In this document: in pieces, positions 2,624 to 10,034 of the stretch
Numbering within the stretch: position 1 is the stretch's first letter
Layout of the letters: every line of letters begins with the position of its first letter
Assembly: GCA_003644825.1 (NCBI GenBank)
Contig: QNDJ01000029.1
Span: 1 to 10,034 of the forward strand
Length of the DNA: 10,034 nucleotides
Direction: 5' to 3'
Source of the DNA: B21-G16 sp003644825 [NCBI: Candidatus Zhuqueibacterota bacterium]
GTDB taxonomy: Bacteria > SM23-31 > B21-G16
Position numbers and translations under genes: made by a program
The notes under the pieces: model-generated
Databases searched by the model: none
Told to the model about the DNA's origin: nothing
What the model saw: only the letters and a program-made list of their open reading frames with translations

Positions 2624-3547
2624 TCATAATTTTTCTCCACCTCTGTAATATGGTTTTCCACTGGCTTTAGGTGGAATAGCTTTTCCAATAAATCCAGCAA
2701 GAATAAGAATTGTTAATATATATGGTATCATCTGAATAAATTCCACAGGAATACCAAACTTTCCCTGAAGCCTGATCTGAAGAGCGTCAGCAAAACCAAA
2801 TAATAAACACGCAAGAAATACTGGAACAGGTTTCCATTTTCCAAGAATAAGAGCAGCAAGTGCTATATAACCCCGACCAGCAGACATATTTTTTATAAAC
2901 TGTGTCCCGTGAGAAATTGAGAGATATGCACCACCTGCACCTCCAAGTATCCCGCTCAGAAGTACCCCATAAAATCTATATTTAACTACACTTATTCCTG
3001 CCACTTCAAGGGCTGATGGATTTTCCCCTGAAGCAATTATCCTTAAACCAAATCTTGTCTCCCGGAATATTACAAAGGTAATCACAACAACAATAAAAGA
3101 AAAATACACCAGTATTGAATGCCCGGAAAATATTTCACCTGCAATCGGTATTCTCTCAATCCAGCTAATGTTTACAGGCTTAAACCATTTTACAACAGGC
3201 GGTGTGGAGCTTGGTGTTCCAAACATAGTTGAAGATAACAAACCAGGAAGGCCAAGGGCAAGAATGTTAATTCCTATTCCGCTAATTATCTGATCTGCAC
3301 GGAAAATTATTGTTATAATAGCATGAATCAGAGATGCCATAAAACCGCACAACATTGCACAAATGAAACCAGCCCAGGGACTCCCGGTATAATAAGCAGC
3401 TACTGCTCCTCCAAAAGCGCCAAAAAGTAAAATCCCCTCAAGAGCTATATTAAATATACCACTCCTTTCAGAATATAATCCACCTATCGCTGCGAAAGTT
3501 AAAGGAGTGGATAATCTTATACCTGCTCCTATTAAGCTGAAATCCAG
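2624..3547 (-). CDS. ABC transporter permease B, BMP/nucleoside importer type (probable CTG start)
   Basis: This is an integral membrane subunit of a BPD_transp_2 importer, resembling NupQ/YufQ of BMP-linked nucleoside transporters. I place the start at CTG 3547 (307 residues), which is near the family's usual length of about 300-320. The first in-frame ATG (3355) would give only 243 residues and drop conserved sequence: RLSTPLTFAAIGGLYSERSG (11-30), then FNIALEG (32-38), the hallmark of this permease family. No ATG, GTG or TTG occurs in frame between the upstream stop (TAA, 3555-3553) and 3355. GGAGGT (3558-3553) sits 5 nt before the CTG. Later landmarks are FRADQIISGIGINILALGL and SAGRGYIALAALILGKWKP, the latter probably the loop that contacts the ATPase. 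Several hydrophobic segments span the membrane. It begins 17 nt after permease A stops and is the last gene of the operon. An out-of-frame ATG at 3560 could instead mean a frameshift or sequence error. Confidence 0.9.
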   Translation of the reverse strand: MDFSLIGAGIRLSTPLTFAAIGGLYSERSGIFNIALEGILLFGAFGGAVAAYYTGSPWAGFICAMLCGFMASLIHAIITIIFRADQIISGIGINILALGLPGLLSSTMFGTPSSTPPVVKWFKPVNISWIERIPIAGEIFSGHSILVYFSFIVVVITFVIFRETRFGLRIIASGENPSALEVAGISVVKYRFYGVLLSGILGGAGGAYLSISHGTQFIKNMSAGRGYIALAALILGKWKPVPVFLACLLFGFADALQIRLQGKFGIPVEFIQMIPYILTILILAGFIGKAIPPKASGKPYYRGGEKL

Positions 3548-3552
3548 AAATT

Positions 3553-3558
3553 ACCTCC
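3553..3558 (-). promoter_or_regulatory. Strong Shine-Dalgarno site that decides the permease B start
   Basis: The minus strand reads GGAGGT here, 5 nt before CTG 3547 and just after the permease A stop codon. No in-frame ATG, GTG or TTG lies within 180 nt downstream of it, so it points to initiation at the CTG. The ATG at 3560 overlaps this site, has no Shine-Dalgarno of its own, and opens a frame that ends quickly. Confidence 0.7.
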
Positions 3559-3564
3559 ATTAAT

Positions 3565-4626
3565 TTACAAAGCTGTATACTTTTTCCTTTTTGCAATCAC
3601 GCTCATTAATTCCCGACTAATAACAAATAAAATAATGATTCCCTGAATAACAAAAATGACATCTCTGGAAATTCTGTCAGAATGTATATCTACAAGAAGA
3701 CCGCCCCTGGAAATCGCACCGAAAAAAATGGCACTTGCTATCACTCCAAGGGGATGATTCTTACCAAGCAAAGCAACAGCAATACCAAAGTATCCATACC
3801 CGGGTGAAAAATTGTTCAGAAATCTGTATCTATAACCAAGAACTTCATTTATACTTACCATTCCAGCAAAAGCACCACTGATAAACATAGTCAACAAATT
3901 TATCTTTATTAAACTTATTCCTGATAATCTTGAAGCATCAGGATTAAAACCAACTGAACGTATTTCATAGCCGAGCTTTGTATATTTTAATAAAACATAA
4001 GCAAAAATTGCAGAAAATATAGCTATAAAAAACGAAATATTTAATGGAACTGTTTCTGGAAAAGCAGGGAAAATCGTATGAATTTCGGGAATCCTCGCAG
4101 ACTCCGAAATTAAAGGGGTTTGTGGAATCTGGTCACCGGGATTCTTAAAAGGACCCGAAGATAGATAGCCAACAAGACTTATTGCAATAAAATTCAACAT
4201 AATAGTGTTTATAACCTCATGGGAACCAAATTTCGCCTTTAAAAACCCTGCAATTGAACCCCATAAACCTCCACCAATGATAGATACAAGTATTGTTAAA
4301 GGAATTAATACAACCGGAGGGAAATTCACAAGTGTAAAACCAACAAAAGCTGCTGCCATCGAACCAATATACAATTGCCCTTCTGCTCCGATATTAAAAA
4401 GACCACCCTTTAATGCAAAAGCTACTGATAGACCTGTAAATATAAGGGGAGTTGAAAAAAAAAGGGTATATAATATCCCTTCTGTTGAACCAAATATACC
4501 CTCTATAAAAATAGAAAATACTTCCGAAGGATGCTCACCAGAAAAAAGTATAATTAAACCCGAAATAAAAAAAGCTCCACAAATAGAAATTAACAGAAAC
4601 AATATCTCTTTTAAATACTTTTTCAC
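3565..4626 (-). CDS. ABC transporter permease A, BMP/nucleoside importer type
   Basis: This is the first of two non-identical membrane subunits, NupP/YufP-like, which would pair with permease B to form the substrate channel. From GTG 4626 it has 353 residues, normal for the family. A first hydrophobic segment (ILFLLISICGAFFISGLIIL) is followed by a periplasmic loop, then the family signature GGLFNIGAEGQ (about residues 74-84). FGSHEVINTIMLNFIA and, near the C-terminus, GYGYFGIAVALLGKNHPLG follow; the latter is the likely ATPase-contact loop. Many hydrophobic stretches indicate roughly 8-10 membrane spans. I prefer GTG 4626, 7 nt after the ATPase stop, because AGGA lies 10 nt upstream of it. 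GTG 4656 in the same frame would add ten polar residues, overlap the ATPase gene by 23 nt, and lacks a good Shine-Dalgarno. The substrate is not shown by sequence; a nucleoside is inferred from family precedent. Confidence 0.92.
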   Translation of the reverse strand: MKKYLKEILFLLISICGAFFISGLIILFSGEHPSEVFSIFIEGIFGSTEGILYTLFFSTPLIFTGLSVAFALKGGLFNIGAEGQLYIGSMAAAFVGFTLVNFPPVVLIPLTILVSIIGGGLWGSIAGFLKAKFGSHEVINTIMLNFIAISLVGYLSSGPFKNPGDQIPQTPLISESARIPEIHTIFPAFPETVPLNISFFIAIFSAIFAYVLLKYTKLGYEIRSVGFNPDASRLSGISLIKINLLTMFISGAFAGMVSINEVLGYRYRFLNNFSPGYGYFGIAVALLGKNHPLGVIASAIFFGAISRGGLLVDIHSDRISRDVIFVIQGIIILFVISRELMSVIAKRKKYTAL

Positions 4627-4633
4627 CTGTAGT

Positions 4634-6148
4634 TCATCCTGCTTTCCTTTTTTCACCGCCTAACATCATAAACCCTATTTCTCTTTCATCGGTTTCTCTG
4701 GTATTAAAAACACCTGTAATTCTTCCTCTATACAACACAGCTATTCTTGAGGTAATAGAGAAAGCCTCATCTATATCAGAAGTTATTAACAAAATACCAG
4801 CACCTTTTTCTTTTAATTTCAGCAACCTGTTACGGATAAAAAATGTTGATTTGATATCAACACCTCTGGTAGGGTTACAGGCAATTAGAAATTCCGGATT
4901 TTTACTTAATTCCCTGGCCAAAATTACCTTTTGCTGGTTGCCACCTGATAGATATTTCACCCTGATATATGGATTATAAGGTTCTATATTAAATTCATCA
5001 ATTAACTTTTCTGCTTCCTTAACAATGATTTTCTTCTGCAACAATCCAAACTTACTGAACTTTTTTTCATCTATTCTCCCGAGTATACAATTTTCATAAA
5101 CAGTAAAATCTTCTACTAAACCATCTTCAATTTTTCGAGAAGGGATAATACTTATTTTACTTTCTTTCAACCATTCGGGGGATATGTTTCTTTTACATTG
5201 TCCTTTGAAGAATATTTTGCCACCATCAGGTTTTATAAATCCCGATAAAATGCCTTCAAGTTCTTTCTGGCCGTTACCCTCAATTCCTACCACTCCAAGT
5301 ATTTCTCCTTCTTTAACCTCGAGTGATATATTTAAATACACTTCTCTATTTTTTTTCAGTTTTACATTTTCTAATTTAAACACAGGTTCTTTCCCACTGA
5401 ACAAGTAAAAAGAATCTTCTAATTTCAATTCCTCACCTGTCATTAATTCAGTCAATTTTTCCACATTCGCTTCATTTTTATTTATAGTTGTGTATATTTT
5501 TCCCTGCCTCATAATTGATATTCTATCTGAAATTTCAATAACTTCCGGTAGTTTGTGAGAAATAAACAGAATTGACTTTTTAGAATCTTTTAACTTTTTC
5601 AATATGTTAAAAAGAGCATCCACTTCAGAAACAGTTAGTGAAGCTGTTGGTTCATCCAGAATAATAATTTTTGCATCCTGCATAAGAATTTTAATCAATT
5701 CGATCCTTTGTTGTTCTCCCAGTGTAAGTTTATTCACCATATCATCAGGGTTAAAATTTAAACCGTATTTTTTAATTAACCTGATAACTTCATCTTTCAC
5801 ATCTTCTCTTTTTATAAATCCGAATTTTACCGGTTCTCTTCCAAGAATAATATTATCAAGTGCTGAAAGGGTATCAACAAGCACAAAATCCTGATGAACC
5901 ATCCCTATCTTTTCATTAATAGCATCCTGAGTTGAATTAAATCTTTTTTCCTCACCATTTATTTTTATTTTTCCAGAATCAGGTTTTAGCAAACCAAAGA
6001 GTATTTTCATTAATGTAGATTTACCTGCCCCATTACCACCTACAATTCCGTGTATTTCACCTTCACATAGGTCAAGATTTACATTATCATTTGCCCTGAC
6101 ATCGCCAAAACTCTTACTTATGTTCAGCATTTCTACTAATTTTTTCAT
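4634..6148 (-). CDS. Two-domain ABC transporter ATPase, BMP/nucleoside importer type
   Basis: At 504 residues, this cytoplasmic subunit powers import and carries two ABC cassettes in one chain, as in NupO/YufO and RbsA-type proteins. Cassette 1 is complete: Walker A GGNGAGKST (37-45), Q-loop Gln86 in MVHQDF, signature LTLGEQQR (141-148), and Walker B IIILDEP with Glu166 (161-167), followed by ILFISHKL. Cassette 2 is degenerate in the usual family manner. Its P-loop region reads GIEGNGQKEL without the GKS/T lysine, its signature is intact (YLSGGNQQKV), and its Walker B region reads LIACNPTRGVD without the catalytic Glu. One site is therefore probably catalytic and the other mainly structural or regulatory. 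The C-terminal GFMMLGG is typical of the family. The ATG at 6148 lies 35 nt inside the lipoprotein gene and has no clear Shine-Dalgarno, suggesting translational coupling. ATG 6130 is possible, but the family usually keeps the VEMLNISKSFG segment. Confidence 0.96.
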   Translation of the reverse strand: MKKLVEMLNISKSFGDVRANDNVNLDLCEGEIHGIVGGNGAGKSTLMKILFGLLKPDSGKIKINGEEKRFNSTQDAINEKIGMVHQDFVLVDTLSALDNIILGREPVKFGFIKREDVKDEVIRLIKKYGLNFNPDDMVNKLTLGEQQRIELIKILMQDAKIIILDEPTASLTVSEVDALFNILKKLKDSKKSILFISHKLPEVIEISDRISIMRQGKIYTTINKNEANVEKLTELMTGEELKLEDSFYLFSGKEPVFKLENVKLKKNREVYLNISLEVKEGEILGVVGIEGNGQKELEGILSGFIKPDGGKIFFKGQCKRNISPEWLKESKISIIPSRKIEDGLVEDFTVYENCILGRIDEKKFSKFGLLQKKIIVKEAEKLIDEFNIEPYNPYIRVKYLSGGNQQKVILARELSKNPEFLIACNPTRGVDIKSTFFIRNRLLKLKEKGAGILLITSDIDEAFSITSRIAVLYRGRITGVFNTRETDEREIGFMMLGGEKRKAG

Positions 6149-7178
6149 AATAATCAGGAACTTTTAATTTTCCTTTTATAATATCCTGCTTTGCTTTTTC
6201 GACCTTCAAAATAAGAGATTCTGGAATTAAATTTCTATTATAATCATCAATAGCATAGTCCAGTCCTTTGTTTTTCAGGTCAAACTTGTGAATACCGGGT
6301 TTAAAATTTCCCTGCACAACATCTTTTATAATCTGGTAAACAGCAACATCCACTTTCTTTAACATACTCGTAAGAACATACCCTGGCTTCAAATAATTCT
6401 GATTAGAATCGTTACCTATGACAAACTTTTTTACTTCTTCAGCAGCATCAAAAACACCCAGCCCGGTAGCACCAGCAGCGGCATAAACTACATCTGCTCC
6501 TCTGGAATATTGTGCTAAAGCTATTTCTTTTCCTTTAGTTGGGTCATTCCAGGCATCAAGGGTTACTCCTGCATAACCCTCATAAACCTCAACTTTCGGG
6601 TTAATATACAGGGCTCCCGCTTTATATCCTTCATAGAATCTGTGAATTAATGGTATATCCATACCGCCAACAAATCCTATTTTCCCAGTTTTTGAAACAC
6701 CTGCTGCAATCATTCCAACAAGAAAAGCCCCCTGGTGTTCCTCAAACAGAATAGATGCTACATTATCGCCCTTTACTTCCACATCAACAATAGCAAATTT
6801 TAATTCGGGATATTCTTTAGAAACTTCTTCAATATAAGGTTTATTCCCAAAACCAACCCCGATAATAAGGTCAAAACCCTGCTCCGCAAGAATCCTGATA
6901 GAAGGCTCGATAGCTGAAGGTTCACCTGGTTCCACATCCTTCAACACTATATTAAAATCTTCTTTTGCTCTCGAGGCTCCAACCCAGGATGCGGTATTAA
7001 AAGACTTATCATCCTTTCCAGCCGCATCAAAAACAAGACCAACCTTGATTTTCCCTTTGTTCTTATCTTCTTCCTTTTTCCTGCAGGATTGAAGTAAGAA
7101 CAATAATCCAAAAAATATTACAAAAAAAATCCGGGAAATATACAAAATCCCGGAAAAACTAAAACTCATTTTTTTCAT
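6114..7178 (-). CDS. BMP-family (PnrA-like) substrate-binding lipoprotein
   Basis: This 354-residue protein should be the extracytoplasmic receptor of the importer encoded just downstream. It has a basic N-terminus, a long Phe/Ile/Leu core and a lipobox LQSC with lipidated Cys32, then a charged linker (RKKEEDKNKGK). The mature part starts with IKVGLVFDAAGKDDKSFN (44-61), the conserved first strand and ligand loop of the BMP/PnrA family. Further hallmarks are GVGFGNKPYIEEVSKEYPELKFAIVD, a GKIGFVGGMDIPLIHRFYEG-type hinge strand, and VYAAAGATGLGVFDAA. PnrA of Treponema and several related proteins bind purine nucleosides, so a nucleoside is the first guess, not a demonstrated substrate. The start at ATG 7178 gives a sensible signal peptide but lacks a clear Shine-Dalgarno; ATG 7169 is an alternative. 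It is the first gene of the four-gene operon and overlaps the ATPase gene by 35 nt. Confidence 0.95.
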   Translation of the reverse strand: MKKMSFSFSGILYISRIFFVIFFGLLFLLQSCRKKEEDKNKGKIKVGLVFDAAGKDDKSFNTASWVGASRAKEDFNIVLKDVEPGEPSAIEPSIRILAEQGFDLIIGVGFGNKPYIEEVSKEYPELKFAIVDVEVKGDNVASILFEEHQGAFLVGMIAAGVSKTGKIGFVGGMDIPLIHRFYEGYKAGALYINPKVEVYEGYAGVTLDAWNDPTKGKEIALAQYSRGADVVYAAAGATGLGVFDAAEEVKKFVIGNDSNQNYLKPGYVLTSMLKKVDVAVYQIIKDVVQGNFKPGIHKFDLKNKGLDYAIDDYNRNLIPESLILKVEKAKQDIIKGKLKVPDYYEKISRNAEHK

Positions 7179-7240: not shown

Positions 7241-7660
7241 CTAAAATGGTAAATCATCTTCTCCTTTAGCAATATCCTGTTTATCTTCAGGGGGAGGTGG
7301 TGGCATTTCTTCCTCAGATTCTGGTTTTCTACCCAGCATCTGAATACTATTTGCAAATATTTCGGTTGTATATCGTCTTATCCCATTTTTATCGTCCCAG
7401 GTTCTCGTTCTTATTTTTCCTTCAACATAAACCTGCATTCCTTTTTTTAACCATTCATTGCTGAATTCAGCCAGTTTTCTCCACGCAACAATTCTATGCC
7501 ATTCAGTTTTTTCCTGCAGGTTTCCATCCTTATCTCTCCATGCTTCACTTGTGGCAAGGTTAAAGTTTACTACCGCATCTCCCGTAGGAGTATACTTAAT
7601 ATCCGGGTCTGTTCCAATGTATCCTATTAATATTGCTTTATTAATTCCTCTTGAAGCCAT
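7241..7660 (-). CDS. ssb: Single-stranded DNA-binding protein
   Basis: At 139 residues it is slightly shorter than E. coli SSB but of usual size for many bacteria. It coats single-stranded DNA in replication, repair and recombination. The OB-fold runs from about residue 4 to 110: [33 protein letters not shown], then [14 protein letters not shown] with the conserved Trp, and [18 protein letters not shown] short acidic, proline-containing tail with a run of five prolines ends in DDLPF, the acidic tip through which SSB recruits partner proteins. AGGAGGA five nt or so before the ATG is a strong ribosome site. A near-consensus promoter lies directly upstream, so ssb is probably expressed strongly and apart from the rnhB-yraN gene before it. 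No clear terminator follows, so the BMP transporter operon 62 nt downstream may share its transcript. Confidence 0.98.
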
Positions 7661-7740: not shown

Positions 7741-8697
7741 CTAAACCCAGAAAGCATCCTTTATATGATTAATTTTAACAAATCCATCCTTTTCAAGTTT
7801 AATTGCTAATACATCAAAACGGCAGTCAATATTATACAGATTCATTTCCTGTAAATATATATTAGCCATTTTTCCTATTTGTTTTTGCTTTTTTTGAGTG
7901 ACCCTGAACTCCGGTTCACCAAACCCACCTTTTTTATTTGTTTTAACTTCTATAAAAACCAGTGTGCCCTGGAATTCAGCCACAATGTCGATTTCTCCAT
8001 CACTTCGCCTGAAATTTCTCTCTATAATTTTGTATCCTCTTTTTCTCAGGTAATTACAGGCTATATCTTCTCCATATCTCCCTATACCCTTTCTTTCATC
8101 ACCAATTAGAAACTTCTGACAGAAAGTAACCCTGTGAACCGGAGATATACCGATATCTTTTATCTTTTCTATATGATATCTTGTTCCATATCCTTTATTT
8201 TTGTCGAACCGATATTCCGGATATTTTTTATGATACTCTTTCATTATTCTATCCCTTGTTACCTTTGCAATAATGGAAGCCGAAGCAATGGATATTGAAT
8301 GAGAATCTCCATCTATTATTGCATAAGGTCTGGGCTTAACATCAGGTTTGTATTTTCCATCAACAATGATTTTATCAGGTTTTTCAGAAAGATTTTCAAT
8401 AGCAATTTTCATCGCTTTTAATGAAGCTTTTAAAATGTTCAGTCGATCAATTTCTTTCTCATCGATTATTCCAATTCCATAACATACGCAATTCTTTATA
8501 AGATAATTATAAAGCTCTTCTCTTTTAGATTCGGAAAGTTTTTTTGAATCGTCGATTCTTGAATCGTAAAAATCCCTTGGAAGTATAATAGCAGAAGCAA
8601 CAACAGGACCTGCAAGAGGACCTCTACCCGCTTCATCAACTCCTGCCAGGTTATATGTTCCTTTCTGCCAGATTTTTTTATCAATTATTGCTTCCAT
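7741..8697 (-). CDS. rnhB: Ribonuclease HII fused to a YraN/UPF0102 nuclease-like domain
   Basis: This 318-residue protein joins two normally separate proteins. Residues 1 to about 200 are RNase HII, which cuts RNA in RNA-DNA hybrids and nicks at single embedded ribonucleotides. GVDEAGRGPLAGPV holds catalytic D21 and E22 and the GRG loop; D113 (IVDG) and D131 (DGD) complete the acidic set. IASASIIAKVTRDRIM follows, and Y170 in KGYGT matches the Tyr that senses the RNA-DNA junction. Residues about 204-318 are a YraN domain (UPF0102, a Holliday-junction-resolvase-like fold of poorly known role). They contain GRYGEDIACNYLRKRGYKIIERN, then GEIDIVA with D237 and VFIEVKT with E250 and K252, an intact PD-(D/E)xK-type pattern. 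There is no stop or frameshift between them; the linker is only a few residues (about 199-205). ATG 8697 has AGGAG 5 nt upstream. It starts 21 nt after comEC and is probably cotranscribed with it. rnhB and yraN are separate neighbours in many bacteria, which makes a genuine fusion plausible. Confidence 0.96.
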   Translation of the reverse strand: MEAIIDKKIWQKGTYNLAGVDEAGRGPLAGPVVASAIILPRDFYDSRIDDSKKLSESKREELYNYLIKNCVCYGIGIIDEKEIDRLNILKASLKAMKIAIENLSEKPDKIIVDGKYKPDVKPRPYAIIDGDSHSISIASASIIAKVTRDRIMKEYHKKYPEYRFDKNKGYGTRYHIEKIKDIGISPVHRVTFCQKFLIGDERKGIGRYGEDIACNYLRKRGYKIIERNFRRSDGEIDIVAEFQGTLVFIEVKTNKKGGFGEPEFRVTQKKQKQIGKMANIYLQEMNLYNIDCRFDVLAIKLEKDGFVKINHIKDAFWV

Positions 8698-8718: not shown

Positions 8719-10034
8719 TCAGGGAATACGAACCCTTTCTATCTTATCTCCATCACTCTTAAAAACAATTGTTCCATCAACATCCGTTCTTAATATTTTT
8801 GAATTAATCAAAGCATATCGATTAAGAACATCCGTTGAAGGATGATTAAAGGGATTAAAAGCTCCAACACTTATCACCGCATACTCTGGATTAACAATCC
8901 TAATGAAATCCATAGTTGAAGATGTGCTGCTTCCATGGTGAGGGACTTTTAATACATCACTTCTCAGGATTTCGCTCCATATCTTTAGCAAACTTTCCCC
9001 TTTTTTCCCTATATCACCGGTAAACAATATTTTATTTTTCCCATATACAAGAAGAATAACAAGAGAATTATCATCTTCGTTCAATTTTCCATTCATAAAC
9101 ACAGGGTTCAATATAAATAAATATTTATTTTTTCCTAAAATAATCTTTTTCCCAGCCTTTAATCTTTTTATTGGAATTGAACTGGTATTCAATACTTTAT
9201 GAATATTATCAACAGGTTCAAAATAGTTTGATGCTTCTGATTCAATAAACTCATCTATTCTATACCTCTCTAAAATGGAAATACACCCACCTGTATGGTC
9301 AATATGATTATGAGAGATAATGATTTTATCCAAGTGTCTTATCCCCTTTTTCTCAAAATAGGGTATAATGGAAAAATCAGCAGCTGTATAATCTTTCATT
9401 CTTGTTCCAGTATCTATCAGAATCTTCTTTCCTGAAGGGAAGTCAAGCAAGCATGCATCACCCTGACCAACATCAAAAAACATTATCTTCAGTTTACCAT
9501 CACCTAAAAAACAAAATCTATTCCAGAAAATCAAATTAAAAACCATCAAAGGTATTATAATCTTCTTATTATTTACTTTATATTTCTTCAAAAGATAAAA
9601 AACCAAAACTATGAACAGTATCCCAGTTAAAAAAAATGTATCCTTTCTGGACAAAGCCAGAACAGAAAAAGAAAATTCAGATGTAATTTGAGATATCTTT
9701 ATAAGTAAGGAAAGAAGAAGCTCTGCCATTCTCTCAAGAAACTGTTCAGGAAAATATGGTATAACTCCCAGTATTATCGATACTGCAACAAGAAAAATTA
9801 TAACACCAAAACCGGGTATGAATATAATATTAAGCAAAATCGATAATATTGAAACTCTTGAAAAATAATAACCGATAAAAGGCATAGTAAAAATGATAAT
9901 TCCTGCAGAAACTCCGACCGAATAGGTTATATAATTCAGAATTTTACTTTTAACACCTTTTCCCGGTTTCAAATAATTATAAAGAAGGTTTCCAGAAAAT
10001 ATTATAGCCGCAACTGCAGAAAAAGAAAGTAAAA
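8719..10034 (-). CDS. comEC: ComEC/Rec2-family DNA uptake channel protein, C-terminal part (5' end outside window)
   Basis: The frame is open to the window edge and gives 437 residues; full-length ComEC is usually about 700-800, so the N-terminal part is missing. A TTG at 9972 is in frame but should not be taken as the start, because upstream codons continue the competence domain (LLSFSAVAAIIFSGN). The first 150 or so residues hold about five hydrophobic membrane segments from the end of that channel domain. The rest is the metallo-beta-lactamase-like domain: MFFDVGQGDACLL (DVGQGD at 9474-9457), ISHNHIDHTGG (9312-9295 covers HNHIDH), FTGDIG, VPHHGSSTS (HH at 8940-8935) and ISVGAFNPFNHPS. These metal-site motifs look intact. 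ComEC carries single-stranded DNA across the inner membrane in transformable bacteria, and this domain is proposed to degrade the other strand. Whether the organism is transformable is not shown. rnhB-yraN follows after 21 nt. Confidence 0.95.
   Translation of the reverse strand, partial: LLSFSAVAAIIFSGNLLYNYLKPGKGVKSKILNYITYSVGVSAGIIIFTMPFIGYYFSRVSILSILLNIIFIPGFGVIIFLVAVSIILGVIPYFPEQFLERMAELLLSLLIKISQITSEFSFSVLALSRKDTFFLTGILFIVLVFYLLKKYKVNNKKIIIPLMVFNLIFWNRFCFLGDGKLKIMFFDVGQGDACLLDFPSGKKILIDTGTRMKDYTAADFSIIPYFEKKGIRHLDKIIISHNHIDHTGGCISILERYRIDEFIESEASNYFEPVDNIHKVLNTSSIPIKRLKAGKKIILGKNKYLFILNPVFMNGKLNEDDNSLVILLVYGKNKILFTGDIGKKGESLLKIWSEILRSDVLKVPHHGSSTSSTMDFIRIVNPEYAVISVGAFNPFNHPSTDVLNRYALINSKILRTDVDGTIVFKSDGDKIERVRIP

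Follow-up and report, generated by a model that had tools for sequence, protein, structure and literature searches.

An intact and recurrent fusion of RNase HII and YraN/UPF0102 in one bacterial open reading frame

Why would an RNase HII and a YraN/UPF0102 protein be made as one polypeptide, and what does their joining say about the role of YraN? The question is raised by a single gene in the 10,034-nucleotide stretch of DNA analysed here (the window), in which an earlier note had read one uninterrupted frame encoding both domains. That reading is correct, since a single open frame on the minus strand matches both Pfam RNase_HII and Pfam UPF0102. YraN occurs widely and is only beginning to be given a role. 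Natural fusions of this kind supply proteins of fixed stoichiometry, whose YraN half can be tested either alone or joined to its partner. The gene, its parts and its neighbours are as follows.

7241..7660, minus strand: ssb (Pfam SSB, 2.2e-37), 80 bases downstream of the fused ORF
7741..8697, minus strand: fused rnhB-yraN ORF of 318 aa, a single open frame with an ATG start
7801..8073, minus strand: YraN/UPF0102 domain, residues 209-299 (Pfam PF02021, solved relative 3fov)
8083..8106, minus strand: junction, about residues 198-205 (pLDDT, start-codon scan, comparison with the unfused pair of genome G003)
8116..8646, minus strand: RNase HII domain, residues 18-194 (Pfam PF01351, alignment with T. 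maritima 3o3g)
8719..10032, minus strand: 3' part of a comEC-like gene (Pfam Competence and Lactamase_B), upstream of the fused ORF, with its 5' end off the window

With E-values of 1.9e-39 and 8.7e-28, both domain matches lie beyond chance. The RNase HII half aligns with PF01351 over its full length (136 bits, cut-off 25.8) and passes the NCBIfam ribonuclease HII equivalog NF000594 (263.6 against 243 bits), while the YraN half covers positions 1-80 of the 80 in PF02021 (97 bits, cut-off 23.6) and passes the NCBIfam YraN model NF009154 (111.1 against 109 bits). Among solved structures, the first half matches by sequence the RNase HII of T. maritima (3o3g, 1.2e-44), and the second half matches the UPF0102 protein RPA0323 (3fov, 4.3e-10). 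No second copy of either domain was found at E <= 1e-3 in the window's own genome, which is 84% complete, and a PHROGs search gave extra matches to families of unknown function only.

The claim that both domains retain their functional residues holds as well. D21, E22, D113 and D131, which we take to be the acidic metal ligands of RNase HII, and Y170, presumably its substrate-sensing tyrosine, are all found in the window protein and are identical in the 13 fused proteins aligned, the window's included. In the YraN half, the stretches E235-I-D237 and E250-V-K252 make up the intact EID...EVK pattern, and the E, D, E and K are retained in 13 of 13 fused proteins (alignment read by eye); the ID...EVK nuclease half-motif of YraN/UPF0102 is given in the available text of PMC1189080. 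With RNase HII (T. maritima 3o3g, E. coli 7uwe), the window protein shares the whole domain, the active-site residues and the fold, but it adds a C-terminal YraN domain. With YraN/UPF0102 (PF02021, 3fov) it shares the whole domain, the PD-(D/E)XK-type E-D-ExK residues and the fold, whereas free YraN is a protein of about 120 aa and the window's YraN is attached to RNase HII. Purifying selection acts on both halves of the fusion in three other genera: across five within-genus pairs (three in family f77 and one each in f18 and f9, all from genera other than the window's), dN/dS ranged from 0.07 to 0.15 over the RNase HII half and from 0.04 to 0.15 over the YraN half, the f9 pair being close to synonymous saturation and one f18 gene being truncated by a contig end.

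An AlphaFold2 model of the 318-aa protein, built from a 16-row alignment that is imperfect where the separate YraN rows begin, reached a mean pLDDT of 89.1 and a pTM of 0.65, with the lowest values (below 50) at residues 200-204. It predicts two well-formed domains without fixing how they are placed relative to each other. In Foldseek searches, RNase HII structures ranked first, the top match being an E. coli transcription-coupled repair complex, and the second domain matched 3fov with a TM-score of 0.80 (by target length).

The joint between the two domains bears on whether a free YraN could also be made. Fourteen residues separate the two Pfam matches, and no in-frame ATG, GTG or TTG occurs in the window gene over the last 60 nt of the RNase HII match or from there to the start of the YraN match; the nearest upstream in-frame start codons, at about residues 96 and 152, fall within RNase HII. 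Because start codons are absent near the junction, a separately initiated YraN is unlikely, and the window's YraN half is, from its sequence, very probably produced only within the fusion chain. Six of the 13 fused genes described below have no in-frame start codon at the joint (the window's L001, with L004, L035, L037, L038 and L060). The other seven carry at least one in-frame start codon nearby and may also yield free YraN.

How common is such a chain? A sample of 386 genomes gave 346 with a match at 1e-20, and matches were listed down to about 8e-47. Among the matches listed, the single-ORF fusion occurs in at least 13 genomes, the window's included, with 9 family codes (G000, G011, G020, G059, G079, G149, G167, G221, G285, G298, G299, G333 and G350; loci L002, L004, L007, L035-L038, L042, L045, L060, L064 and L065 besides the window's). 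The hunch of the earlier note that similar fusions exist was thus well founded. Of the listed rows whose open frames reached about 300 aa, nearly all were inspected; G073, from the family that includes the unfused L061 and L092, was left out. Thirteen is a lower bound, since only the best matches are listed and fusions with long linkers are split into separate rows. The gene of G020 runs into a contig end and is fused over its available length. In the other bacterial fusions the domain order is that of the window and a single ORF is used, but L064 and L065 have long linkers (about 65-75 residues between the domain matches) and the fusions probably do not all stem from one event. Chains of this type bear the UniProt label 'multifunctional fusion protein'. 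No published description of an RNase HII-YraN fusion was found in the literature searched, where spelling variants ('RNAseHII' in PMC10140301) may conceal papers.

Several candidates were set aside. In L005, L011, L039, L040, L041, L043, L044 and L049 a stop separates the domains, and the long open frames of L061, L066, L080-L087, L092 and L051 are not YraN fusions. As a separate observation, G350 holds, besides L037, a second RNase HII-YraN fused frame (contig C102, L068) of 229 aa, truncated by a contig end, which may reflect a strain mixture or a true copy.

This recurrence also weighs on the suspicion that an indel in the window's metagenome assembly joined two separate genes. The lineage is known from one assembly (84% complete, 493 contigs) and the class relatives G002, G003 and G005 are unfused, as such an error would have it; yet short-joint fusions recur across other genomes, three of a single genus among them, and the present frame has no separate YraN start codon near the joint, so that we consider an artefact highly improbable. 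The fused chain consists of one ORF with intact residues and without an internal start nearby, and it recurs. It is a real, recurrent and intact joining of two known domains and belongs to a class of fusions found scattered among bacteria; it does not amount to a new system.

Unfused genomes suggest how the joining may have come about. In a sample of 60 genomes including the window's own, mostly distant relatives (58 with a match), the 53 other genomes with both domains divided into 25 with separate but adjacent genes, 25 with non-adjacent genes and 3 with fusions, which bears out the frequent rnhB-yraN adjacency asserted beforehand. Genes were scored as adjacent when they shared a strand and their matches lay -100 to 400 bases apart; pairs split between contigs were scored as non-adjacent, and some of the non-adjacent pairs are divided in this way in fragmented assemblies. 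G038, whose one row has a stop dividing the domains, was counted as adjacent-separate, the other 24 having been assigned by script, and the counts include the weak partial RNase matches of G023 and G034. In three Clostridium genomes (L026, L027 and L028), yraN directly follows rnhB as a tail-to-tail neighbour encoded on the other strand.

Closer to the window, five other genomes of its phylum were available for comparison (G001-G005). G002, G003 and G005, all class relatives, possess both domains unfused, and neither domain was matched in the incomplete genomes of G001 and G004 (79 and 70%). A distance of 10.8 kb separates the two genes of G002. G003 carries, in this order, what looks by eye like the end of a comEC-like gene, a further ORF, and rnhB, followed after a single base by yraN, and the end of its rnhB has a Phe-Cys-x-Lys stretch resembling the window's. 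With only one base between its two genes, G003 makes an adjacent separate pair a plausible ancestor, and the window fusion would then be most simply explained by a few codons lost from a joint of this kind, as judged from this one relative.

Domain trees were built from 54 RNase HII and 43 YraN rows of loci L001-L059, including 10 of the 13 fused genes. They exclude L033 (which duplicates the place of L009), L060, L064, L065, loci without the domain, and short matches (up to 150 residues for RNase HII and up to 80 for YraN). On each tree the fused state requires six changes, of which well-supported branches force at least three on the RNase HII tree and at least two on the YraN tree. Label shuffles were as low as observed in 1-2 of 500 cases for RNase HII and 5-7 of 500 for YraN, so that most shuffles leave the fused label less clustered than it is on the trees. 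Fused genes of two families (L002 and L038, from G059 and G333) group together on both trees, and some families may share one fusion event. By identity, the rows closest to the window come from class relatives that lack the fusion: G002 (56%) in RNase HII and G003 (54%) in YraN. A single common origin of all fusions was not supported: the fused rows are scattered on both trees, whose deep branches are weak. This scatter makes more than one fusion event probable, with gain and loss indistinguishable on the trees.

What the chain does is a further matter. The RNase HII family incises at ribonucleotides embedded in DNA. For YraN, the available portions of PMC1189080 and PMC1913061 class it among PD-(D/E)XK nucleases, and the earlier note described it as having little assigned function, a statement that may be outdated: in its accessible part, a 2025 article (PMC12455585, whose source for YraN-ComM is a 2024 preprint from Hardy and colleagues) presents YraN as a helicase-associated nuclease that may aid, with the helicase ComM, the integration of transforming DNA. 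No further papers on YraN function beyond those cited here were found among the matches listed.

We favour, with a probability of about 0.6, a bifunctional chain derived from merged adjacent rnhB and yraN genes, in which each half does the job of its own family and no shared substrate is needed. Co-directional neighbours would have lost the intervening stop, the start and a few codons. We infer that the RNase HII half would incise embedded ribonucleotides in DNA as well as RNA-DNA hybrids, and that the YraN half would be a small PD-(D/E)XK-type DNA-binding module, probably a nuclease, most likely serving recombination with a ComM/YifB helicase. One chain with a short linker would hold the halves in a fixed 1:1 ratio, and the fusion would mainly be a by-product of operon adjacency. 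Against this by-product view, two genes that fuse again and again can do so under selection for coupling, and the repeated joining of this pair goes beyond a single accident. The favoured reading is also weakened by the DNA binding without cutting reported for one UPF0102 protein (below) and by the seven fused genes that may yield free YraN.

The earlier note went further and took the fusion as a hint that both halves act on a shared substrate, such as RNA-DNA junctions or nicks. In its explicit form, RNase HII would nick DNA at ribonucleotides, and the YraN attached to it would process the same nick, flap or junction. The fusion in at least nine families (among the matches listed) and the frequent adjacency of the separate genes speak for such channelling, as does a predicted RNase HII gene flanking five of five metagenomic UPF0102 genes inspected in the available text of PMC10140301. 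Against it, the genes are non-adjacent in 25 of 53 genomes (some of these on different contigs of fragmented assemblies), and the UPF0102 protein assayed in the same text left the substrates tried (damaged, mismatched, tailed or junction DNA) uncut. The control genomes of B. subtilis and L. lactis gave no UPF0102 match, and B. subtilis uses RNase HII. Furthermore, rnhB is also fused elsewhere: L063:1200-2348 of G100 joins RNase HII to QueH in one ORF (PF02677, 7e-69; family f98), and L062 of G367, in the same genus, has a QueH-like C-terminal part by sequence similarity. QueH is a queuosine enzyme without expected link to RNase HII, so shared function should not be read from fusion alone. The fusion is a modest clue to function; the queH case and the B. 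subtilis control weaken the step from joining to a common substrate, and channelling itself seems to us possible though doubtful.

The mycobacterial protein RelZ (MS_RHII-RSD), likewise bifunctional, has its RNase HII at the N-terminus, but the partner is a (p)ppGpp synthetase unrelated to YraN. Its domains are reportedly both required in cis, according to the available text of PMC7591505, and RNase HII fusions can for this reason be truly interdependent. For YraN, the question of why its gene is so often next to rnhB becomes directly testable, because natural fusions give its half with or without the partner.

In the accessible part of PMC10140301, the UPF0102 protein under assay bound DNA, both single- and double-stranded, but left it uncut, as would be expected if YraN were a non-cutting tether keeping RNase HII on DNA. 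The retention of the nuclease residues E/D/E/K in all 13 fused proteins runs counter to such a role, which we regard as improbable.

Joint work on recombination or transformation intermediates can also be envisaged, in which RNase HII would open those containing ribonucleotides and the linked YraN, with ComM, would cut or trim the same intermediate; we find this rather unlikely. A ComM/YifB match above the family cut-off was present in 15 of 16 genomes (the window's, four of five class relatives and 10 of 10 other fused genomes), that of G005 being a fragment; the search took 11 of the fused genomes, without G149 and G285. Among 14 control genomes, all matched ComM/YifB, eight of them above the cut-off, and 11 had DprA, which is also matched in the window genome. 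Since both proteins are widespread in the controls, their presence is permissive and gives weak support to the ComM partnership proposed under our preferred reading of two independent activities.

The gene neighbourhood had been offered as a DNA-processing context for the fusion. A comEC-like gene end is also found upstream in the unfused G003, so this neighbour is not tied to the fusion, and the upstream genes of other fusions differ: judged by eye, they resemble rpsP, rimM, trmD or rplS in f77, f18 and f9, and neither these nor comEC in G059, G333 and G299. Elsewhere in the window, positions 2624-7178 hold a PnrA-like (Bmp) gene (Pfam), then genes that resemble, by eye, those of an ATPase and two permeases, a probable nucleoside-type ABC uptake operon. 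An M1-family peptidase at 614-2587 has a weak C-terminal Por_Secre_tail match (below cut-off), which suggests a secreted enzyme.
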